Assembly (NCBI GenBank): GCA_000830315.1
Contig: CP010426.1
Location: forward strand, 1-60,669
From: an archaeon GW2011_AR20
GTDB taxonomy: Archaea; Nanobdellota; Nanobdellia; SCGC-AAA011-G17; GW2011-AR20
DNA: 60,669 nucleotides
Direction of reading: 5' to 3'
A program made the translations under genes and the position numbers. Each line of letters opens with the position of its first letter. Within the stretch, counting starts at the first letter, position 1. Below, one piece after another: positions 29,183 to 41,559 of the stretch. The notes below the pieces were generated by a model. It was not told the DNA's origin. It worked only from the letters and a program-made list of their open reading frames with translations, and did no database searches.

Positions 29183-30937
29183 ATGCAAAGCAGCGAATTA
29201 AAAAAGAAATATCTGGAATTCTTCAATAATAAGCAGCATGCTATTATACCAAGTTCTAGCTTAATGCCAGAAAATGACCCGACTGTTTTATTCACAACAG
29301 CAGGAATGCATCCCCTGGTTCCATATCTATTAGGACAAAAACATCCCTCTGGAAAAAAACTTGTCAATTTTCAAAAATGCCTGAGAACAGATGATATAGA
29401 AGAAGTTGGTGACTCAACACATTTAACTTTTTTTGAGATGCTTGGTAACTGGAGTTTGGGGGATTATTTTAAAAAAGAGGCAATTGAGTGGAGTTATGAA
29501 TTTCTTACAAAGCATTTAAAATTAGATCCAAAAAGATTGCATGTAAGTTGTTTTAAGGGAGACAAAGATGCTCCAAAGGATACTGAATCGGCCAAGATAT
29601 GGCAAGGCTTGGGAATCCCAAAGGAAAGAGTTTACTTTTTTGGCAAGAAAGAAAATTGGTGGCCCTCTCCAAAACAGGAGACAACAGGTCCATGTGGCCC
29701 TGATACAGAAATGTATTATGATACCTTAAAAAAGAAATGCGGCAAGGACTGCATGCCCGGATGTAACTGCGGAAAGTATGTTGAAATCTGGAATAACGTT
29801 TTCATGCAGTACAATAAAACCAAAGATGGAAAATACACTGGATTAAAGCAAAAAAATGTTGATACTGGAATGGGTTTGGAACGTACAACAATGGTTCTGC
29901 AAAATAAGTCAAGTGTATTTGAAACTGATTTGTTTCAGGATATGGTAAAAAAGATAGAAAATTTATCGAGCAAAAAAGACACAAGGGCAGTAAGAATTAT
30001 AGCGGACCATTTAAGGGCTGCGACATTTATCCTGGCCGAAAGGATTTCCCCAAGCAATGTAGAGCATGGCTACATTCTAAGAAGATTGATCAGGAGGGCC
30101 ATACGTTACGGGCATTTAATCGGAATTAAAGATAAATTTGCAAAGCAGATTTCGGATATTGTAATCAGAAAATATAAAAATGATTACAATGACCTGGAAA
30201 GAAACAGGGAATTCATATTAAATGAATTCGAACTTGAAGAAGAAAGATTTGAAAAAACATTGATAAACGGCCTAAGAATAATCCAGGAAGAAATCCCAAA
30301 AATAAAAAACAAGATTATTTCCAAGGAACTAGCATTTAACTTGTTTACAACTTACGGTTTTCCTTTAGAGATGATTAATGAAGTTGCAAGGGAAAATAAA
30401 TTAAAAGTCGATGAAATGGGATTTAAGGAATTATTTGCAAAGCACCAGGAAATTTCAAGAAAAGGGGCTGAGCAGAAATTCAGGGGAGGATTAGCAGATC
30501 ATTCAGAAGAAGTTGTAAGAATGCATACTGCCACACATTTGCTGCATCAAGCCTTGCGGGATATCTTGGGAAAACACGTAAGACAAATGGGGAGCAATAT
30601 CACAAGGGAAAGATTAAGATTTGATTTCTCACATCCAAAAGCAATGACAAAAGAAGAAATTAAAAAAGTTGAGGATTTGGTTAATAAAAAAATAAAAGAA
30701 AACCTAAAAGTAGAGAGATCAGAATTAAAATACAATGACGCGATAAAACAAGGCGCCTTGGCATTTTTTAAGGAAAAATATCCGGACGTTGTTTCTGTGT
30801 ACAAAATCGGAGATTACAGTATGGAGCTATGCGGCGGACCCCATGTTAAAAACACGAAGGAAATTGGTAAATTTAAGATTATAAAAGAAGAGACTATTTC
30901 TGCTGGCGTAAGAAGAATAAAGGCAGTTGTTAATTAA
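29183..30937 (+). CDS. alaS: Alanyl-tRNA synthetase, short bacterial-type form
   Basis: 584 residues instead of the usual 850-900. The catalytic domain is complete (PSSSLMPENDPTVLFTTAGMHPLVPYLLG, FFEMLGNWSLGDYFK, GMGLER) and has the bacterial order; the editing domain is present (HTATHLLHQAL, CGGPHV). The frame then ends without the C-Ala/DHHA1 domain and coiled coil. CPR bacteria and some DPANN archaea have similar short forms. Expected to charge tRNA-Ala. Confidence 0.88.
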   Translation: MQSSELKKKYLEFFNNKQHAIIPSSSLMPENDPTVLFTTAGMHPLVPYLLGQKHPSGKKLVNFQKCLRTDDIEEVGDSTHLTFFEMLGNWSLGDYFKKEAIEWSYEFLTKHLKLDPKRLHVSCFKGDKDAPKDTESAKIWQGLGIPKERVYFFGKKENWWPSPKQETTGPCGPDTEMYYDTLKKKCGKDCMPGCNCGKYVEIWNNVFMQYNKTKDGKYTGLKQKNVDTGMGLERTTMVLQNKSSVFETDLFQDMVKKIENLSSKKDTRAVRIIADHLRAATFILAERISPSNVEHGYILRRLIRRAIRYGHLIGIKDKFAKQISDIVIRKYKNDYNDLERNREFILNEFELEEERFEKTLINGLRIIQEEIPKIKNKIISKELAFNLFTTYGFPLEMINEVARENKLKVDEMGFKELFAKHQEISRKGAEQKFRGGLADHSEEVVRMHTATHLLHQALRDILGKHVRQMGSNITRERLRFDFSHPKAMTKEEIKKVEDLVNKKIKENLKVERSELKYNDAIKQGALAFFKEKYPDVVSVYKIGDYSMELCGGPHVKNTKEIGKFKIIKEETISAGVRRIKAVVN

Positions 30938-32942: not shown

Positions 32943-34112
32943 ATGAGGAAAAGAATAGGTTTTGTTGGAGGGGGCCAGCTTTGCAGAATGATTGGAGAGG
33001 ATATTCGGTCAAAAAATCTTCCTTTTGAATTAATAGCTTTGGATCCGACTCCTAAATGTCCTGCTTATCCGTTCTTATCTGAACAGATAATCGGTGGATT
33101 CAAGGATGAGAATAAGATTAGAGAGTTAGCTGAAAAATCAGATATCCTCACATACGAGATTGAGCTGGCAAACAGCAAAATTTTAAATGAAATTCAAAAA
33201 AATAAGCCAGTGCACCCTTCTCCCGAAACGCTCGAGATTATTCAGGATAAATATATGCAGGCTTCTTTTCTAAAGAACAATGATATCCCTGTCCCAGATT
33301 TTATGAAGATATATAACAAAACAGATTTGATTGAAGCAATCAATATTTTTGGACTGCCACTTATGATCAAGGCTAGAATAGACTCTTATGACGGAAGGGG
33401 CAATTTTGTTTTAATGGAAAAAAGACAAATCGAAGATGTTATTGAAATGTTTAAAGAAAGAAGTTTAATGGCTCAGAAATACATCCATTATGATGTTGAA
33501 ATTTCTGTAATCGCTGCAAGAAACATTAAAGGAGAAATTTCGACTTTTCCTGTTGGAGAGAATATACACGGCAAAGATTATAATATATTAAGGACAACTA
33601 TTGTACCGGCAAGAATTAAATCAAATCTTGAAATTAAAGCTAAGCAAGTCGCAGAAATTACCATGAATACTTTAAAAGGGGGAGGAGTATTTGGAATAGA
33701 AATGCTTGTAAAAGGCGAAAATGTATTGGTCAATGAGATAGCGCCAAGGGTCCATAATTCTGGGCATTATACCATAGAAGCATGTGAAACATCCCAATTC
33801 GAGCAGCATTTAAGGGCAATCGCTGGAATGGATTTGGGGGGCACAAGATTAAATTCTATTGCAATAATGCACAATATTATCGGGGAAAAAAATTACAGTG
33901 GGGGGTATGATATCAGCTATCTTGGCAAAGGCATAACAGGGGTTTGTGAAATAGAAGAAGGGGTTTATGTTCATAACTATGGAAAACATGAGGTAAAACC
34001 ATACAGAAAAATAGGGCATATTACTTTGCTTGGCAGAAAAAAAGAATCTACGGAAGAATTAATGATAAGGGCTTTTTCCATAAAAAACTTGGTAAAAATA
34101 TTGCCAAAATAG
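32943..34112 (+). CDS. purK: N5-carboxyaminoimidazole ribonucleotide synthase
   Basis: ATP-grasp enzyme that carboxylates AIR using ATP and bicarbonate in purine synthesis. 389 residues: RIGFVGGGQLCRMI at the N-terminus, KYMQASFLKNNDIPVPDF and the central ATP-grasp (LMIKARIDSYDGRGNFV, QKYIHYDVEISVIAARN), FGIEMLVKG and NEIAPRVHNSGHYTIEACETSQFEQHLRAI. Its usual partner PurE is not in the window. It is the last core gene before the accessory island. Confidence 0.92.
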   Translation: MRKRIGFVGGGQLCRMIGEDIRSKNLPFELIALDPTPKCPAYPFLSEQIIGGFKDENKIRELAEKSDILTYEIELANSKILNEIQKNKPVHPSPETLEIIQDKYMQASFLKNNDIPVPDFMKIYNKTDLIEAINIFGLPLMIKARIDSYDGRGNFVLMEKRQIEDVIEMFKERSLMAQKYIHYDVEISVIAARNIKGEISTFPVGENIHGKDYNILRTTIVPARIKSNLEIKAKQVAEITMNTLKGGGVFGIEMLVKGENVLVNEIAPRVHNSGHYTIEACETSQFEQHLRAIAGMDLGGTRLNSIAIMHNIIGEKNYSGGYDISYLGKGITGVCEIEEGVYVHNYGKHEVKPYRKIGHITLLGRKKESTEELMIRAFSIKNLVKILPK

Positions 34113-34132: not shown

Positions 34133-35227
34133 CTAGTCCTCTACTTGTGCAAAATATAGTTCTGCACATTTTTTAAAGTCTATTTCAATTCCAAGTTCGA
34201 AGCCCTCCTGAACTAAAACTGCTAGATTATGACATAGACATTTCATTAGAATCTCATTTATTTGTCCTGTTTCATCCCTCAACCTTAAGAAGTTTCCATA
34301 AATTCTTTTTAACATAGAGAAAGTTGTTTCTATATTTGAACGTGCATGATAATGCTTCATAAATTCTTCTTGATTATTATAGAAAAATAGCCACATTTGT
34401 TTCCATAATCTAGAACCCCTAGAGTTCTTTAATGAATTTGATTTAAATGGAATAAAAGGAATCGCTCCATGTTCACCTATAAAATTTAGATTATTTCTAG
34501 AAAGATATGCTTTGTCTGCTGAGATTTCTTTCATGTCAAAATGTTTTGCAGTATTTTTAATTAATGGAACAAGTTCTGGAGAGTCTCCATAATTTCCTGG
34601 TGTTATTCTAACAGAAGTAATACAATGAGTTTTTGCTCCGCATGATAGATGAACTTTCTTCCATTTTCTTTTCCTTGATACTGCTTGAGTTCTTATGTCA
34701 AACCAACGTTCATAAAGCGATGTAGAAAATCCACTCGAATCAACAATTATTTTTTCTTCTACCAATCTCAAAGGCATTGCAGTAATTTCAACTAATTGAG
34801 AAAGTATCGAAGTCATTTCATCTTTCTTGAAGAAATTACAGACTGTATTAAAATGAGGAGTTTTATCTATAAGTTTATTCTGTCTTGCAAGTTCTAAATC
34901 CGAAATAACCCTTCTTGAACTAAATCTTGAATAAGTATAAAGAAACATGCAAATCATTTGTTCTTTCAATGGAATCAAAGGTCTTCCATTACATTTGTTT
35001 TTTTCTATTTCAAAATTTTCTATAAGTTCAGATAATAATCTTAATGCAACAATTTTTTCAGAAGTTTTTGCTTGATTATATTCGCTCCATTTTTGGGCAT
35101 AGGTCTTTCTAAGCGAATTTACTTGATTTAAAACTTTTTGAGTGTTTTTTCTCTTGAATTCATCATCACCATGATTACCATCTATCGTTTTCATTCTTAT
35201 AGCCTTTTTATCCTTTTCGAAGTTCAT
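34133..35227 (-). CDS. IS4/IS5-like DDE transposase
   Basis: 364 residues with a DDE triad context: EEKIIVDSSGFS, EISADKAYLS and ARSNIETTFSMLKR. The middle carries the charged GRPLIPLKEQM segment of this group. I find no clear terminal inverted repeats; the hairpin TTTGCAC/GTGCAAA at 34121-34152 overlaps its 3' end and could be a terminator. It is the left gene of the island and probably helped bring it in. Confidence 0.8.
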   Translation of the reverse strand: MNFEKDKKAIRMKTIDGNHGDDEFKRKNTQKVLNQVNSLRKTYAQKWSEYNQAKTSEKIVALRLLSELIENFEIEKNKCNGRPLIPLKEQMICMFLYTYSRFSSRRVISDLELARQNKLIDKTPHFNTVCNFFKKDEMTSILSQLVEITAMPLRLVEEKIIVDSSGFSTSLYERWFDIRTQAVSRKRKWKKVHLSCGAKTHCITSVRITPGNYGDSPELVPLIKNTAKHFDMKEISADKAYLSRNNLNFIGEHGAIPFIPFKSNSLKNSRGSRLWKQMWLFFYNNQEEFMKHYHARSNIETTFSMLKRIYGNFLRLRDETGQINEILMKCLCHNLAVLVQEGFELGIEIDFKKCAELYFAQVED

Positions 35228-35273
35228 CAGTATGGATTCTTTCCGGAATTCGCAATCAATCTTTATAACTATC

Positions 35274-35298
35274 TACTTATGTAAGTAAATAGCTTACT
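35274..35298. promoter_or_regulatory. Shared island motif, first copy
   Basis: TACTTATGTAAG followed by ATAGCTTAC. The same 12-mer and 9-mer recur at 38481-38496 before the winged-helix gene. A candidate binding site for an island regulator. Confidence 0.4.
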
Positions 35299-35368
35299 AA
35301 TATATAAATGTTTCTATTTCTAAATTTTAACAGGTAAGATTTTATAATTCGAAAAGCTTATATAATAA

Positions 35369-35418
35369 GTATAACACCTTTATTTATTAAAGTATAACTC
35401 TTTTATGAAATAAGGTGT
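35369..35418 (+). promoter_or_regulatory. Operator array before the RHH gene
   Basis: AGTATAACACCTTTAT (35369-35384) is repeated as AGTATAACTCTTTTAT (35391-35406), 22 bp apart. ACACCTTTATTT (35374-35385) and AAATAAGGTGT (35408-35418) are inverted. A TATA-like TATATAATAAG lies at 35360-35370. Tandem sites two turns apart are the usual way ribbon-helix-helix proteins bind. Confidence 0.55.
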
Positions 35419-35423
35419 AATAC

Positions 35424-35585
35424 ATGCCATCGGAAAGAAGAATAACAATTTATCTGGAAAAGGAAGACTTTAAATTATTCAAAGTTGCCCTTAAAAAGTA
35501 TAAAAAAGATGATTCCAAATTGGGAAGAGAAATAGTGCACATGTGGCTTTTTAACAACAAGTTGCAGCTGGAGGCTAAGAAATGA
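35424..35585 (+). CDS. Small ribbon-helix-helix-like regulator
   Basis: 53 residues, MPSERRITIYLEKEDF then a helix KLFKVALKKYKKDDSKLGR and a second helix. A short N-terminal strand followed by two helices is the ribbon-helix-helix layout, as in CopG-type regulators. Its stop overlaps the methylase start (AAATGATT), so it is translated with the methylase. Role by position: controller of the restriction-modification island, acting on the tandem repeats just upstream. Missed by default length limits. Confidence 0.6.
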   Translation: MPSERRITIYLEKEDFKLFKVALKKYKKDDSKLGREIVHMWLFNNKLQLEAKK

Positions 35586-36637
35586 TTCCGGTAGCAATTG
35601 ATTTTTTTGCAGGAGCAGGAGGCTTGAGCGAAGGATTCAAGCAAGCAGGATTTCGCATAGCAGTAGCCAACGAGATAAACAAGGATGCTGCAGCAACTTA
35701 TTCTTTAAATCATCCGGATACAAAAGTCTTGATAGGGGACATACACAATATTAAATCAAGAGATATTATAAAAATAGTTGGAAGAAAGCCGGATATAATT
35801 ATCGGGGGTCCCCCATGCCAAGGATTTTCTCTTGCCGGTAAAAGAAATAAGAACGATTCGCGCAACTTTTTATTTAAGGAATTTATAAAAAAGATAAAGG
35901 AAATTAAGCCCAAATTTTTTTTAATGGAAAATGTAACTGGTATAATTTCATTTAACAAGGGAAAGACAATTGCGGAGATCGAGGATTCGCTTAAAAAATC
36001 CGGATATACAGTTTCAAAGATAATTCTAAATGCTGCGGATTTTGGTGTACCACAAGTCAGGAGAAGGCTTTTCATATTCGGAGCCCTGAAATCAAATATA
36101 AATATTAATGAGATTAAAGTTTGGAAAAACAAAGCCATAACAACAAAAGAAGCCATATGTGACTTAGACTTTTTGGGAGTTGGAGAAAGTTCTAATCATT
36201 ATAAAAAATCGCCATCAAACAAATACCAAGCAATCATGAGAATAAAAAATAACAAGCTTCACAACCATACATCTTCGAGGCATAATAAAATGACAATTAA
36301 AAGATTCTCTATGCTAAAGCCTGGGCATACCATGAAAGAAATTCCCGCTTATTTTAAAACTAAAAAAAGAACATTGCTAAGGATAGAGGAATCAAAACCA
36401 ATTAATACCATAACAACAATTCCGGATGATTATATACACTATTCCTTGAATAGGACCTTGACGGTAAGGGAATGCGCCAGACTGCAAAGCTTCCCCGATT
36501 CTTACGTTTTCTTGGGGTCTAGAACTACTGGTGGAAAAAGAAGAGTGTTCGAGTGTCCGCAATATACACAAGTAGGAAATGCTGTTCCGCCGATACTTGC
36601 CAAAGTTGTTGGCGAATGGATAAAAAAACAATTCTAG
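35582..36637 (+). CDS. C5-cytosine DNA methyltransferase, first copy
   Basis: Adds a methyl group to cytosine C5 in a target sequence. 351 residues with motifs in order: DFFAGAGGLSEGF (I), GGPPCQGFSLAG (IV, catalytic Cys), LMENVTG (VI), QVRRRLFIFG (VIII), RECARLQSFPDSYVF (IX-like) and QVGNAVPPILAKV (X). The variable recognition domain is short, and the target sequence cannot be read from it. Starts with a 4-bp overlap on the RHH gene, in an operon. Confidence 0.92.
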   Translation: MIPVAIDFFAGAGGLSEGFKQAGFRIAVANEINKDAAATYSLNHPDTKVLIGDIHNIKSRDIIKIVGRKPDIIIGGPPCQGFSLAGKRNKNDSRNFLFKEFIKKIKEIKPKFFLMENVTGIISFNKGKTIAEIEDSLKKSGYTVSKIILNAADFGVPQVRRRLFIFGALKSNININEIKVWKNKAITTKEAICDLDFLGVGESSNHYKKSPSNKYQAIMRIKNNKLHNHTSSRHNKMTIKRFSMLKPGHTMKEIPAYFKTKKRTLLRIEESKPINTITTIPDDYIHYSLNRTLTVRECARLQSFPDSYVFLGSRTTGGKRRVFECPQYTQVGNAVPPILAKVVGEWIKKQF

Positions 36638-36661
36638 CTTAAAATTCGATAAATAACAAAG

Positions 36662-36715
36662 TTTATATACTAGTTCTGTAGCCCTTGGTAACATACCCGG
36701 GCAAATGCCATGGGC
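36662..36715 (+). promoter_or_regulatory. Promoter and GC-rich hairpin before the GHKL ATPase
   Basis: TATA-like TTTATATAC at 36662-36670, then GCCCTTGG (36681-36688) facing CCATGGGC (36708-36715) with CCCGGGC between. Transcription would start inside the hairpin, so this may be an operator or leader structure. Confidence 0.4.
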
Positions 36716-36751
36716 ATTAACTTTAAAAATAGAGGAATCTGATAATAAACC

Positions 36752-38236
36752 ATGAAAGATAAAGAATCTAAAATCAAAGGCGAAGAGAATTCTGAAAAAA
36801 TAAAAGTTGGAACAAATATAATTAAAAATCTTAGCACAACTTTTTATCCAAATCCAAAGATTATTTTTGACGAATTAATAACTAATTCTAGAGATGCAAT
36901 GGCAAATATTGTAAAGATGCATGTAAATAATAATACCATAACAATAGAGGATGATGGAGATGGAATGAGTAGAGACGAACTTATACATTTCTTCTTTATT
37001 TCACATTCAAATAAACTGGAACAACCGATAAAATCCAAGGGCGGAGTAAAAAGAGAAATTATTGGTAAGTTTGGAATAGGAAAATTATCTCTTTATCAAA
37101 TATGCAAATGGTTTGAAATCACGACCTGGAAAAATGGCGTTGAATCTAAAGCAACATTTAACTTTGAAGATTTCGAAAAAGAAAAATATGTCGATGATTT
37201 TTCATTACATATAATTTCTGAAACAAGAACTTCTAAAAAAAATGGTACAAGGATAGTATTGCATGATCTTAAGAAAAAAAATAGTGCTAATGATATAAAA
37301 AGGCATTTAATAAGAACAATGCCTTTCACCAAAGATTTTAAGATAATTATTAGTGGCGGAGACTTAGCAAGACCTGTAGAATTAAGAAGCGAAGATATTC
37401 TGCATGGGAATGTAGCATCTAAATACGAAATTGATGAAGATGTTGCAGGAGTTGGGAAAGTAACTGGAACAATTATTTACAAAAAACATGAGCCAGGAGA
37501 TTTTGGGGTTTACATTAGAGTATTTGGAAGAGTTGTAAACCTAAGTGACCCCCACGGGATCATAAACTTCTCTTCATTAACAAGCGCATTTTTTGCAGCC
37601 AGAAAAATATATGCTGACCTTAACGTGGATAGTTTAAATAATGCAATTCAAACTAATAGGGCGGGATTTGTAAAGGATAATCCATCTTATATTGCTTTTA
37701 CAAAATGGCTTACAACAAAATTGAACAAGTTAAATAAGGAAATGAGTACCAAAATAAAAGAAATGAAAAGGGGGGCAGAAGTTATAGAGGTTAAAGATAT
37801 TGTTTCTAGTTTCTTCTCATCAAGGGGGGATAAGAAAATGGAGGGAATAAAACCAAAACAAAAGCACTTGAAAAGAATGAAAAGGGGTGCTAAGCTAGAG
37901 GAAGATACAATCCTAAATAAAAAAAGTTATATTTTACTGCATGGCAGAAGATTTGGAGTAGAAGTAGAACCTATCGGAAGAGACAAGCCAGAAGCTATAA
38001 TGGACAAAAAAGAAAACAAGATAGTAATAAATTCAGATAACCCCCTCTATGAGATTTCCCGAGCTAACGGTGGCGTTTGGGGTGTTCAATATCATGCTCT
38101 TAGAGCTTCAATAATAGTTTTTGCGATAGAGATCTCAAAAAATCTCGATGAATTTATAAAAAATTATAACTTAATGGTTAAAGAAAGCGAAGAGATAGTA
38201 CAAAACATGAAGAGGAGGCTAGTAATAAATAATTGA
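36752..38236 (+). CDS. GHKL (MORC/MutL-like) ATPase
   Basis: 494 residues. The GHKL ATP site is complete: IIFDELITNSRDA (N-box with the Glu-Asn pair), EDDGDGMSRDEL (G1), GKFGIGKLSLYQ (G2) and NGTRIVLHDL. A charged middle and a domain with a basic linker (RMKRGAKLEED) follow. Iyer, Abhiman and Aravind described MutL/MORC-type ATPases coupled to DNA methylases in restriction systems, and this context is the same. Likely an ATP-driven clamp that senses or loops DNA for the island nucleases. The function is inferred. Confidence 0.78.
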   Translation: MKDKESKIKGEENSEKIKVGTNIIKNLSTTFYPNPKIIFDELITNSRDAMANIVKMHVNNNTITIEDDGDGMSRDELIHFFFISHSNKLEQPIKSKGGVKREIIGKFGIGKLSLYQICKWFEITTWKNGVESKATFNFEDFEKEKYVDDFSLHIISETRTSKKNGTRIVLHDLKKKNSANDIKRHLIRTMPFTKDFKIIISGGDLARPVELRSEDILHGNVASKYEIDEDVAGVGKVTGTIIYKKHEPGDFGVYIRVFGRVVNLSDPHGIINFSSLTSAFFAARKIYADLNVDSLNNAIQTNRAGFVKDNPSYIAFTKWLTTKLNKLNKEMSTKIKEMKRGAEVIEVKDIVSSFFSSRGDKKMEGIKPKQKHLKRMKRGAKLEEDTILNKKSYILLHGRRFGVEVEPIGRDKPEAIMDKKENKIVINSDNPLYEISRANGGVWGVQYHALRASIIVFAIEISKNLDEFIKNYNLMVKESEEIVQNMKRRLVINN

Positions 38237-38248
38237 ATATTATTCAAT
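38232..38248 (+). terminator. Possible hairpin after the ATPase gene
   Basis: ATTGAAT-ATT-ATTCAAT, a 7-bp stem overlapping the stop of the ATPase gene. Confidence 0.3.
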
Positions 38249-38250
38249 GG

Positions 38251-38400
38251 AAAACAACAGACCGCTGAGGCGAAGCATATAAAAAAGAAGTGAGAAAAGA
38301 ACTGGGTGCGCCACATACTGGTTCTCATGAACATCCGCCCGATGATCAGGTCATGAGCTAGGAGGGTTCCATCGCTCAGCGGGTTGATATTTCCGCAGAC
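38251..38400 (+). ncRNA. Candidate structured RNA
   Basis: A GC-rich 150-bp block in an otherwise very AT-rich region. CCGCTGAG (38262-38269) can pair with CTCAGCGG (38375-38382). Inside, AGAACTGG (38299-38306) pairs with CTGGTTCT (38317-38325, with G-U pairs), and CTCATGA (38324-38330) with TCATGAG (38351-38357), enclosing CATC/GATG. I match it to no known RNA family. The strand is not certain. An alternative is a decayed coding remnant (see findings). Confidence 0.4.
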
Positions 38401-38465
38401 GTTATTAATATAACAAAATCAGGGGGAAGATTTAGTATATAAATTATTCGCTCATAACAGCGATA

Positions 38466-38496
38466 TATTTATATAGGTACATAGCTTACATAAGTA
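38466..38496 (+). promoter_or_regulatory. Promoter with shared island motif, second copy
   Basis: TATTTATATAGG gives a TATA box at about 38465-38474, and CTTACATAAGTA (38485-38496) is the reverse complement of the 35274 motif. It sits directly before ATG 38499. Confidence 0.45.
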
Positions 38497-38498
38497 AA

Positions 38499-38750
38499 AT
38501 GACTGAACCTTTGCCAAAATGGGAAATGAGGAAGTATGCTTACCTGTGGAAAAATTTTCAAAAAAAAGAATTCACGAACGAACAGGCAATAAAAGCCTTG
38601 AAAGAGAAGAATCCTCATCTGATGAGCGTTCTTTTTTACGACTTGAAAAATATGGGATGGCTATTCGTTGAAAGAGATAAAAAAGATCAGCGAAAAAAAG
38701 TTTACAAGATAAAAGAGCCTAACGAGGCAGTAAAGGAAATGGCAAAATGA
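38499..38750 (+). CDS. Winged-helix-like small protein
   Basis: 83 residues. RKYAYLWKNFQKKEFTNEQAIKALKEK is followed by a recognition-type helix and a beta wing (WLFVERDKKDQRKKVYKI), so a winged-helix fold is likely. It heads the three-gene operon with the Cas4-like nuclease and second methylase; its stop overlaps the nuclease start as ATGA. A regulator or DNA-recognition subunit is a fair guess. Confidence 0.6.
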   Translation: MTEPLPKWEMRKYAYLWKNFQKKEFTNEQAIKALKEKNPHLMSVLFYDLKNMGWLFVERDKKDQRKKVYKIKEPNEAVKEMAK

Positions 38751-39406
38751 CATTTAAACTTTCTCCTTCATCAATGAATTTAGTAGAGGATTGTCCAAGA
38801 TGTTTCTGGCTACAAATTGTTAAAAAGATTTCAAGACCTTCTGGAATATTCCCAAGTTTACCTTCTGGGGTTGATAAAATGCTTAAAGAACATTTTGACA
38901 GATTTAGAGATAATAACAAATTACCGCCTGAATTAAAAGAACTTAAAGATGTTAAATTATTTGAGGATAAGGAATTATTAAAAAAATGGAGAAATAATCT
39001 AAAAGGAATTGAATTTAAAGATGAGGATAATGATGTTCTTCTGCATGGAGCAGTTGACAATTTATTAAGCAAGGACAATAAGTTAATTGTTATCGATTAT
39101 AAAACAAGAGGATTCGCACTAAAAGAAGATACCGCCCATCATTATCAAGATCAACTTGATATTTACAATTTTTTATTAAGAAAAAATGGTTATGAAACGG
39201 AAGACTTTGCTTACCTGTTATTCTACTTACCTGAGAAAGTTTTGGAAAGCGGAGAATTTATATTTAAGAACGAATTAGTGAAAATGAAGATTGATATAAA
39301 ACACGCAGAATTTTTGCTTGATAGGGCAATTAATATAATAAAGGGGGAAATGCCTGAAGCAAGCAAAGATTGTAAATATTGTAAATGGGGGGAAAATGAA
39401 TTTTAA
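38747..39406 (+). CDS. Cas4/RecB-like PD-(D/E)XK nuclease
   Basis: 219 residues. FKLSPSSMNLVEDCPRCFW holds two Cys near the start, and DCKYCKW two at the end; together they can bind an Fe-S cluster as in Cas4 and AddB. The nuclease core has LLHGAVDNLL (Asp), LIVIDYKTRG (Asp-x-Lys) and HHYQDQLDIYNFLL (the Gln motif). There are no CRISPR genes nearby, so it is a solo Cas4-like exonuclease, probably the processing nuclease of the island. Confidence 0.75.
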   Translation: MTFKLSPSSMNLVEDCPRCFWLQIVKKISRPSGIFPSLPSGVDKMLKEHFDRFRDNNKLPPELKELKDVKLFEDKELLKKWRNNLKGIEFKDEDNDVLLHGAVDNLLSKDNKLIVIDYKTRGFALKEDTAHHYQDQLDIYNFLLRKNGYETEDFAYLLFYLPEKVLESGEFIFKNELVKMKIDIKHAEFLLDRAINIIKGEMPEASKDCKYCKWGENEF

Positions 39407-40376
39407 AACAGCAGATTTATTTGCTGGTGTTGGTGGTATAAGGCTTGGCTTTGAGCGAGCTGGATTTAAAACAGTTTTTGCAAATGATAATAATAAAAAT
39501 TGCAAGTTAACTTATGATTTAAATTTTAAAGAACCGGAATTACTGGTAAAAGATATTCGGAAAATTTATATAAAAGAAATGCCAGATTTTGATGTTCTTT
39601 TAGGTGGATTTCCATGTCAGGCATTCTCTATAGCAGGAAATCAAGGAGGCTTTAAAGACGAAGAATCTGGAGGAAATCTTTTTTTTAAAATTGCACAAAT
39701 TCTTAGAATAAAAAAACCTCAAGCATTTATGCTTGAAAATGTTAAGAACCTTAAGAGTCACTATAAAGGGCACACCTTCAAAGTTATAAAAAATGCTCTT
39801 GAAAAATTAGGCTATCATATTAAAGCAGAAGTGTTGAATAGCATGACTCATGGAAATATTCCGCAGAACAGGGAAAGAATATTTATTGTCGGTTTTTTAG
39901 ATAAGGATAAAGCAGAAGCATTTGAATTTCCAAAAGAAATACCATTGACTAAAAGTTTTAAGGAATTTATTTTGAGTAAAACAGAGGATAAATATTATTA
40001 TAATGATAAGCCTCTTTACGAAAAAATAAAGAATGATGTAAATTCGGAAGAAATGGTTTATCAATGGAGAAGAAGATATATAAGGGCGAATAAAAGAGGA
40101 GTTGTTCCCACTTTAACAGCAAATATGGGAACTGGCGGTCATAACGTTCCTATTGTAAGAAACGGCATTGGTATCAGGAAATTAACCCCCCAGGAATGTT
40201 TTTGGTTGCAAGGTTTTCCAAAAAATTTTAAATTACCAGGCATAGCAGATAGCTATCTATATCATCAAGCAGGGAACAGCGTAACAGTTCCCGTGGTTGA
40301 AAGAGTTGCACAGAATATAATGCTTGTTATGAAAGGCAAAATTATAAATGAACAGCAAATGATTTCAAGATTTTAA
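39396..40376 (+). CDS. C5-cytosine DNA methyltransferase, second copy
   Basis: 326 residues with FAGVGGIRLGFERAG (I), GGFPCQAFSIAG (IV), LENVKNL (VI), NRERIFIVGF (VIII), TPQECFWLQGFP (IX) and HQAGNSVTVPVV (X). It overlaps the nuclease gene by 11 bp. It is divergent in sequence from the first methylase, so the two may recognise different sites. Convergent with Vsr, which repairs T:G mismatches from deaminated 5-methylcytosine. Confidence 0.92.
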   Translation: MNFKTADLFAGVGGIRLGFERAGFKTVFANDNNKNCKLTYDLNFKEPELLVKDIRKIYIKEMPDFDVLLGGFPCQAFSIAGNQGGFKDEESGGNLFFKIAQILRIKKPQAFMLENVKNLKSHYKGHTFKVIKNALEKLGYHIKAEVLNSMTHGNIPQNRERIFIVGFLDKDKAEAFEFPKEIPLTKSFKEFILSKTEDKYYYNDKPLYEKIKNDVNSEEMVYQWRRRYIRANKRGVVPTLTANMGTGGHNVPIVRNGIGIRKLTPQECFWLQGFPKNFKLPGIADSYLYHQAGNSVTVPVVERVAQNIMLVMKGKIINEQQMISRF

Positions 40377-40712
40377 ATTATGCTCCCAAATTCTCTTTAC
40401 TTTCCACCCAGAATTTTTATAGGCAAAATTTATTTCTCTATCTCTTAAGATATTCCTTTCAATTTTGGGCTTCCAATATTCTTTGTTGGATTGTGGCTTT
40501 TTAAAATGCTTTGGACATTTATGCCAGAAACAACCGTCAATAAAAATAGCTATTTTCTTTTTATAATCTATAAAATCAGGTTTCCCAAAGACTTTGGGCT
40601 GATAAGTAAACTCCTTAAACTTTTTTTTAAAATTAAGCTCGGGTTTTGTTTTTGAGCTTTTTATCCTTGACATAATGTAACTTCTTTGCTTTTTAGTCAA
40701 GTTGTCTGGCAT
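40365..40712 (-). CDS. vsr: Vsr-type mismatch endonuclease
   Basis: Nicks beside T:G mismatches that arise when 5-methylcytosine deaminates. 115 residues: LTKKQRSYIMSRIKSSKTKPE at the start, VFGKPDFIDYKKKIAIFIDGCFWHKCPKH (catalytic Asp and zinc-binding Cys/His) and the ending WKVKRIWEHNL. Length is normal (about 130). Its ATG follows the upstream gene stop by 1 nt, so they form an operon. Confidence 0.88.
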   Translation of the reverse strand: MPDNLTKKQRSYIMSRIKSSKTKPELNFKKKFKEFTYQPKVFGKPDFIDYKKKIAIFIDGCFWHKCPKHFKKPQSNKEYWKPKIERNILRDREINFAYKNSGWKVKRIWEHNLKS

Positions 40713-40713
40713 T

Positions 40714-41559
40714 TTATAATTTTTTAACTAAATCCTTCCAATCATCATTAGAATTATGCATTTGTCCAACTGCTTTTACATACCTATATCCATTATCAAA
40801 TCTCTGACCAGGTATTTCTCTAACTTTTTCTAATTCATTATGATAAGAAAAACCTGTAACCCAAATTGGTATTTCTCTCAATTCCTTTATTTTTTTAAAT
40901 CCTTCTGAGTTTTCTAAAAAGTCTTTAACATTTTTGAAAAAAGAATGTTCCCTTAAAATTCTAAATAAATGGTCTGATGGAAGTCCGACCCTGACAAAAA
41001 TATAGATGTCTGACCTTCTTCTCGGATTTTCATATTCAAGTGGGTCTATTATATTAAAACAATTCTTCCACTTGCTGGCTTTTACTGCAACATTTATTCT
41101 AATAGGTCTTATAGAATTCCTTTCTTTTATTCCAATAAAATCCTGTTCTGTGATATGGTCTGGATGTACTTCAGTATCCAATTCTACATCAATATTAAAT
41201 TTTTCCTTTATGAACTTTTGGATACCATGTTCTGCCAAAATTCCAAGAATAAAATCATCTGCCATTTGAACCTCACTTCTTGCTCCACGTATTCCCGTAC
41301 CATGACTTCCCCTTGCTGAATAAGCCATTTTTATTGCAAATTCAAAGCATTTTTCATATTCTTTTAAAGTAAGTATAACTGTTCTTTGTTCTTTAAGTTC
41401 CTTCCAAAAATCCAAATCTGATTTTTTAAACCAAAATCTTGAACCTATTTTGTTTCCCTTTATTTCTTTGCTATTTTTAAAATAATTATTAAATTCTTTC
41501 TTTTCTATACCAAGATGTTCTATTGCTTCTGAGGAATTTAATAACTCGTTTTCTCTCAT
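40714..41559 (-). CDS. Probable type II restriction endonuclease
   Basis: 281 residues. The N-terminus is an excisionase/MerR-type helix-turn-helix (NSSEAIEHLGIEKKEFNNYF, with SRFWFKKSDLDFW). The core contains GSHGTGIRGARSEVQMADDFILG and a plausible nuclease site with QDFIGI (Asp) and RINVAVKASKW (V-x-Lys). An Arg-rich PRRRSDIYIFVRVGLPSD segment follows. I cannot name its family, but its place with two methylases and Vsr argues for the restriction subunit. Confidence 0.55.
   Translation of the reverse strand: MRENELLNSSEAIEHLGIEKKEFNNYFKNSKEIKGNKIGSRFWFKKSDLDFWKELKEQRTVILTLKEYEKCFEFAIKMAYSARGSHGTGIRGARSEVQMADDFILGILAEHGIQKFIKEKFNIDVELDTEVHPDHITEQDFIGIKERNSIRPIRINVAVKASKWKNCFNIIDPLEYENPRRRSDIYIFVRVGLPSDHLFRILREHSFFKNVKDFLENSEGFKKIKELREIPIWVTGFSYHNELEKVREIPGQRFDNGYRYVKAVGQMHNSNDDWKDLVKKL

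Follow-up and report, generated by a model that had tools for sequence, protein, structure and literature searches.

In DPANN archaea, nucleases of the Cas4 fold are also encoded at non-CRISPR locations, and passages of Hudaiberdiev et al. 2017 (PMC5704561) describe such solo-Cas4 genes beside restriction-modification (RM) genes and already note Dcm-Vsr pairs together with other Cas4-like and MORC proteins. Two further kinds of described system are close to the locus considered here, namely the MORC/paraMORC restriction systems of Iyer, Abhiman and Aravind 2008 (PMC2292703), where a C5-cytosine methylase stands next to a GHKL ATPase with an S5 module and Vsr is nearby in some loci, and the compact, recurring type II RM sets of C5 methylase, restriction endonuclease (REase) and Vsr. 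Genes of all these kinds are found together in the archaeon GW2011_AR20, where restriction genes and a Cas4-like gene are packed into 6 kb of chromosome at 32% GC. The window analysed is the first 60.7 kb (positions 1 to 60,669 of contig CP010426.1) of this 829-kb single-contig genome. The island is best read as three separable units that have been brought together, rather than as one new machine, a reading to which a probability of roughly 0.86 is given and which draws on the genes themselves, their intact motifs, their separate occurrence elsewhere and the turnover of the neighbours of Cas4.

A preliminary description of this DNA had listed two C5 methylases, a GHKL ATPase, a Cas4-like nuclease, a winged-helix protein, Vsr, a restriction enzyme and a ribbon-helix-helix (RHH) regulator, and every one of these genes has been located. 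The main family matches, with E values of 1e-8 to 1e-87, lie far beyond chance, the RHH and winged helix-turn-helix (wHTH) assignments being weaker. The overlaps within operons are also as described, with ATGA shared between the RHH gene and the first methylase (M1) and between the wHTH and Cas4-like genes, 11 nt between the Cas4-like gene and the second methylase (M2), and 12 nt between the convergent M2 and Vsr genes. The interval originally given to the island, 34133-41559, does contain the named genes, and only its left part (34133-35227), a transposase, falls outside the set.

The first unit (RHH–C5 methylase–GHKL ATPase, 35424–38236) lies on the plus strand. The RHH-like regulator is a 53-residue open reading frame (ORF; 35424–35585) assigned by inspection, with no library match, and its end overlaps the start of M1 (35582–36637; PF00145, E 1e-78). 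M1 has a complete series of motifs (FAGAGG, GPPCQ, ENV, QVRRR and GNAV), its closest solved structure being M.HaeIII. The paraMORC-type ATPase (36752–38236; PF13589, E 7e-21) keeps DELITNSRDA at 40, DDGDGM and IGKFGIGK at 104 intact together with the S5 module, and its structural model (mean pLDDT 62.6, with residues ~17-340 mostly confident) resembles the Hsp90/TRAP1 and MORC3 ATPases, the top TM among the matches listed belonging to MORC3 (TMt 0.60).

The pairing of methylase and ATPase recurs. A search of genome contigs with the GHKL query gave no relatives, and in a search of the phylum's genomes homologues were detected in 9 of 279, all of those outside the genome itself being distant (26-32% identity). 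A C5 methylase lies directly upstream of the GHKL ATPase in the phylum-mates L011 and L015, the two genes overlap on a Halobaculum plasmid, the pairing is present on a Haloplanus plasmid, and on a Rhizobium plasmid the methylase directly precedes the ATPase with Vsr also present; methylase beside ATPase is the arrangement of the window (35582-38236) and of L011, L015, L212 and L213. These recurring pairs bear out the earlier assignment of the locus to the MORC-associated RM islands of Iyer, Abhiman and Aravind, and RHH-M1-GHKL is a paraMORC-type restriction unit. Within it M1 would mark host sites and, by the model of Iyer et al., the ATPase would couple ATP-driven DNA looping to the cutting of unmarked DNA. 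The unit differs from its described counterparts in two ways. The ATPase matches the NCBIfam BbrUII/HgiDII family (NF050001) over its N-terminal part with E 9e-29, its 100.5 bits being far below the equivalog cutoff of 550, and it is without the C-terminal nuclease-like domain (paraMORC3) found in the L011 homologue, itself a weak HSDR_N_2 match below cutoff. Profile searches found no recognisable nuclease domain in the ATPase, residues 343-494 of which are mostly of low model confidence.

The second unit (C5 methylase–Vsr–REase, 39396–41559) begins with M2 on the plus strand (39396–40376; PF00145, E 3e-87), which has all the C5 motifs, M.HhaI as its nearest solved relative and homologues that are 70-73% identical in L068 and L196. 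On the minus strand are the Vsr mismatch endonuclease (40365–40712; TIGR00632, 114 bits, passing the cutoff of 97.85) and an REase-like gene (40714–41559; PADLOC type II REase, E 3e-8) with a weak N-terminal helix-turn-helix (HTH). The core of the latter reads QDF...VAVK...RRSD; the three sequences compared all keep VxVK at 157 as well as QDF at 139, with QDI in place of QDF in one homologue, and no acidic residue stands in its usual position ahead of the Lys. Its homologues, 59% identical in G021 and 36% in G109, stand beside C5 methylases: in G021 a 70% identical M2 homologue adjoins the REase, and G109 has a C5 methylase (31%), the REase and Vsr (48%), both loci being without Cas4 or GHKL genes. 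In L069, a related REase has a 48% identical Vsr next to it. The M2-Vsr-REase set is a type II RM unit of ordinary kind, in which M2 would methylate a short site, the REase would cut the same site when unmethylated, and Vsr would repair the T:G mismatches that arise from deamination of 5-methylcytosine. What sets it apart from other type II systems with Vsr is its REase family, which has no Pfam name and for which a search of PDB sequences gave no solved relative.

Between these two lies the third unit (wHTH–Cas4-like nuclease, 38499–39406), on the plus strand. Its first gene encodes a winged-helix protein of 83 amino acids (38499–38750) with weak HTH matches only, which may be a portable regulator of restriction genes. 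Relatives of it are seen directly upstream of GmrSD (L053 2909-6204) and of a type IIG enzyme (L071 6759-10126), and likewise of a large two-gene operon in L150 (1704-6926) that was read by eye as probably type III RM. The Cas4-like gene (38747–39406; PF12705, E 4e-14) encodes Cys16, Cys19, Cys209 and Cys212 and the RecB-type catalytic residues D104, D117-x-K119 and Q136-x3-Y140; across 15 sequences the four cysteines, D104, D117, K119 and Y140 are invariant and Q136 is nearly so. Its AlphaFold2 model (pLDDT 88.5) has the Cas4/Cas1/Cas2 structure 7mi5 as best PDB match (E 4.7e-6, TM 0.49), a search of PDB sequences gives no match, and the score against TIGR00372 (30.9 bits) does not reach the cutoff of 65. 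Scans with family and defence libraries identified no other cas genes in the island. Within the order, 30 of 103 genomes have the gene, its full-length copies being 54-70% identical, and 382 Cas4-like relatives were found in GTDB, the close ones mostly labelled Woesearchaeota, Pacearchaeota or Nanoarchaeota. A 57% identical gene also occurs in records titled Methanoperedenaceae and Methanosarcinales (L143, L199), which reflects either transfer or a mislabelled record.

Why, then, should these units not be parts of a single system? The preliminary description had proposed a new effector module made up of the ATPase and the Cas4-like nuclease; in such a module the ATPase would license Cas4 to degrade unmethylated DNA. 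The two genes are on the same strand about 0.5 kb apart, in Rubrobacter a distant relative of the GHKL protein has a PD-(D/E)XK protein as its neighbour, and the ATPase, being without a recognisable nuclease domain, keeps the proposal alive for this one genome. A gene-neighbourhood comparison by tblastn took in the nearer relatives of this Cas4, as the best 80 of the 382 GTDB loci (up to 20 kb each, searched at E 1e-4), together with a sample of genomes from the phylum. Relatives of this ATPase, of Vsr and of the REase were each found at 0 of 80 Cas4-like loci, C5 methylase matches at 3 and wHTH matches at 2; conversely, a Cas4-like gene was seen at none of 8 other, distant ATPase loci. The ATPase and nuclease rarely co-occur, and because no ATPase relative was detected near the 80 best-matching Cas4 loci the effector module is not supported. 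The ATPase is moreover rare (9/279) and Cas4 common (30/103), their genes have separate upstream regions with a remnant stretch between them, and the M2, REase and Vsr genes also travel alone. A joint ATPase-Cas4 machine is therefore considered very improbable, and known units take the place of the proposed new effector.

Some observations do weigh against full separability. A 38-nt, promoter-like sequence ending TAGCTTAC occurs in 74% similar form upstream of both plus-strand operons (35260-35297 and 38452-38489), which could reflect their co-regulation and is a further point for a single module, tempered by the position of the first copy, which has the transposase on one side and the RHH gene on the other. 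The distance of the GHKL homologues means that a rare or diverged ATPase-Cas4 pairing could have been missed, and an ATPase without a recognisable nuclease could have its cutter supplied by a neighbour in this genome.

A second way of joining the units would have solo-Cas4 serve M2-Vsr-REase, for example by trimming cut ends or aiding repair after self-cutting. The 11-nt overlap of the Cas4 and M2 genes fits with this, as does L196, where a 73% identical M2 lies ~0.7 kb from Cas4 with another small ORF between them, and solo-Cas4 near RM genes is a DPANN pattern described in passages of PMC5704561. Set against it, the M2 and REase genes of G021, and a related set in G109, come with no Cas4, C5 methylases are near just 3 of the 80 Cas4 genes, and tight downstream spacing is common anyway (27 of 63 neighbours lie within 25 nt). 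Such a service role is judged unlikely, and three separable units remain the preferred account.

Also part of that account is the company that solo-Cas4 keeps. Across the 80 loci, 50 families are represented among the 53 same-strand neighbours upstream, and 60 among the 63 downstream. Neighbours were assigned automatically by taking the longest open frame close by, and some of the calls will be wrong; 26 upstream and 27 downstream neighbours are within 25 nt of Cas4. In a small control on loci of ribosomal protein L15e, a single family accounts for 7 of the 10 upstream neighbours, the downstream neighbours being variable too. The neighbours of Cas4 include MNT-HEPN pairs, ResIII proteins, D12, HsdM, N6/N4 methylases and a Schlafen-type helicase, and since these defence-type genes were chosen by eye for scanning they show variety and not a measured enrichment. 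The neighbours of solo-Cas4, a widespread DPANN gene, change constantly and are often of a defence type, and we infer that the gene marks a site at which cassettes of defence genes build up. Near-total neighbour turnover, and the end-fragments and shared cores considered below, are not reported in the PMC5704561 passages.

These end-fragments are stand-alone pieces of the Cas4-like gene in relatives. They were sought by running profiles 32 and 30 residues long, for the N-terminus, middle and C-terminus of the protein, against the 103 genomes of the order, and short open frames were counted by eye from the tables with contig ends excluded, giving about 11 5' fragments, about 8 3' fragments and no middle-only fragments; more 3' fragments are found across the phylum. 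Nearly all of the 5' fragments are ~17-31 codons long, the exception being G132 (~140 codons). Where fragment and full copy share a contig, the 5' fragments are upstream of the full copy on the same strand (three in L065, two in L195, and one each in L072, L138, L189, L201 and G117) and the single 3' fragment, in L161, is downstream. In L065 (1-4200) 5' fragments alternate with MNT-HEPN pairs ahead of the intact gene, in L209 (1900-3000) two 3' fragments enclose a homologous MNT-HEPN pair, and short repeated sites bound cassettes in L065, L072, L138, L189, L195, L201 and L209. An array is present in L195 (7400-10640) as well, and in these arrays of L065, L195 and L209 MNT-HEPN and further small genes are set apart by 5' or 3' end-fragments of the Cas4-like gene.

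The sequence around the CPRC Cys codon was compared in eleven fragment/full pairs, of which nine, from six loci, were scored. G329 had no anchor, the G283 pair was left out because fragment and full copy come from separate contigs (the core in this pair is clearly weaker), and the G117 5' fragment, with a 1-nt gap in the core, was not scored. Core and flank windows were fixed after the alignments had been seen, making this a description and not a blind test. Most fragments share with the full gene a near-identical core of 20–37 bp, with adjoining sequence that has diverged. Median identity over the core (-12..+15) is 0.93 against 0.74 in 3160 between-genome pairs, and the longest identical run has a median of 29 against 9; the 30 nt preceding the core give 0.67 against 0.60, and beyond the core the sequences are unrelated. 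The 3' fragment of L161 has, at its inner edge, a block of ~55 bp that matches the full gene exactly. A rank test on run length gives p = 6e-7, or 1e-5 with one pair per locus, values that are indicative only because the windows were chosen afterwards, the control pairs are non-independent and the L065 and L195 pairs kept were those with the clearest core or near to it. A palindrome in the Cas4 5' core (CCAGATGCTTCTGG) was set aside, being for the most part a consequence of the PRCFW codons.

A shared core with outer sequence that would come from two different parents is the pattern of an attachment site, not proof of one. It is tentatively proposed, at somewhat less than even odds, that the two ends of DPANN (Woesearchaeota/Pacearchaeota-type) solo-Cas4 genes serve as recombination sites for the addition of cassettes, toxin-antitoxin and restriction ones among them. 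An event of this kind would leave behind a short duplicate, of the 5' end on the upstream side or of the 3' end on the downstream side, sharing a near-identical core of ~20-60 bp with a Cas4 gene that remains intact, the exchange being driven maybe by the Cas4 nuclease itself or by a host tyrosine recombinase. The island in the window would be one outcome of this kind of growth, any traces of which have been lost there or never arose. This proposal is separate from, and less certain than, the reading of the island as three units.

The fragments may instead be what tandem duplication and decay have left behind, site-specific recombination having played no part, an explanation with a substantial chance of being right, if well short of an even one, and local gene conversion acting on decaying duplicates is a possible form of it. 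Fragments look non-functional, some with stops, and tyrosine recombinases number 11.5 per Mb near Cas4 against 9.0 per Mb far from it, with no enrichment that would point to a linked recombinase; tyrosine recombinase genes are seen just upstream of a Cas4 5' fragment in two suggestive cases (L072 1604-2458 and L201 8075-8887). Decay would be expected to give even similarity, yet codons for the same amino acid are identical in 61/69 cases (88%) in the core and 31/66 (47%) just upstream, the controls giving 49% and 38%. It would also be expected to give varied lengths, whereas nearly all 5' fragments fall within the narrow range above, and a stand-alone middle fragment was not found. Counting against recombination at the gene ends are the L195b pair, which runs opposite to the core pattern, the metagenomic origin of several of the fragment-bearing contigs, and the window and its own genome, where no credible Cas4 fragments were detected.

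A literature search found no report of Cas4-end fragments, subscription papers and supplements being outside its scope. Orphan Rhs toxin arrays offer a parallel, in that their displaced modules keep a short stretch of the core gene, as the Cas4 fragments do; here, however, what is kept can be either end of a free-standing nuclease gene, and the cassettes next to it are unrelated. Integrons, those of archaea included (PMC9668308), resemble the loci of the relatives in having cassettes separated by short repeated sites, but the repeats here are nuclease-gene ends rather than attC sites. If the recombination proposal holds, the cassette-collecting system would be unrelated to integrons and to CRISPR. 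Because the neighbours change almost completely and the gene ends are attachment-site-like, a role for Cas4 in the acquisition of defence genes, or as a landing site for them, is suggested, which gives a concrete handle on the open question of what solo-Cas4 does in CRISPR-poor DPANN archaea.

The island is bounded by purK (32943-34112) and the gene for ribosomal protein L15e (41703). Its left neighbour, outside both RM units, is an IS5-type DDE transposase on the minus strand (34133–35227; PF01609, E 6e-20; NF033579 IS5, E 8e-40), and a DNA search of the genome found no second copy. An Rfam scan of the island gave nothing credible. The two plus-strand operons are separated by a decayed gene remnant or non-coding stretch (38237–38440, plus strand), of which ~150 nt (38250-38400) are at 50% GC and one frame is protein-like with a TGA and a TAG. 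A structured RNA or known protein was rejected here, as Rfam, Pfam and plasmid comparisons gave no match or convincing homologue and the folding is not unusual (z -0.5); order-wide matches were of 19-31 nt only, at chance level. In G302, of the same family, TFIIE is beside L15e with ~0.6 kb between them, a layout, seen in this single genome, that is consistent with insertion of purK and the island at L15e. The Cas4-like gene is also near ribosomal L15e in L170 and L174 (~5.6 and ~1.5 kb, compared with 2.3 kb in the window), a possible recurrent locus. Further upstream, the window contains an alanyl-tRNA synthetase-like ORF of 584 amino acids (29183-30937), which we take to be short for an archaeal enzyme of this type.

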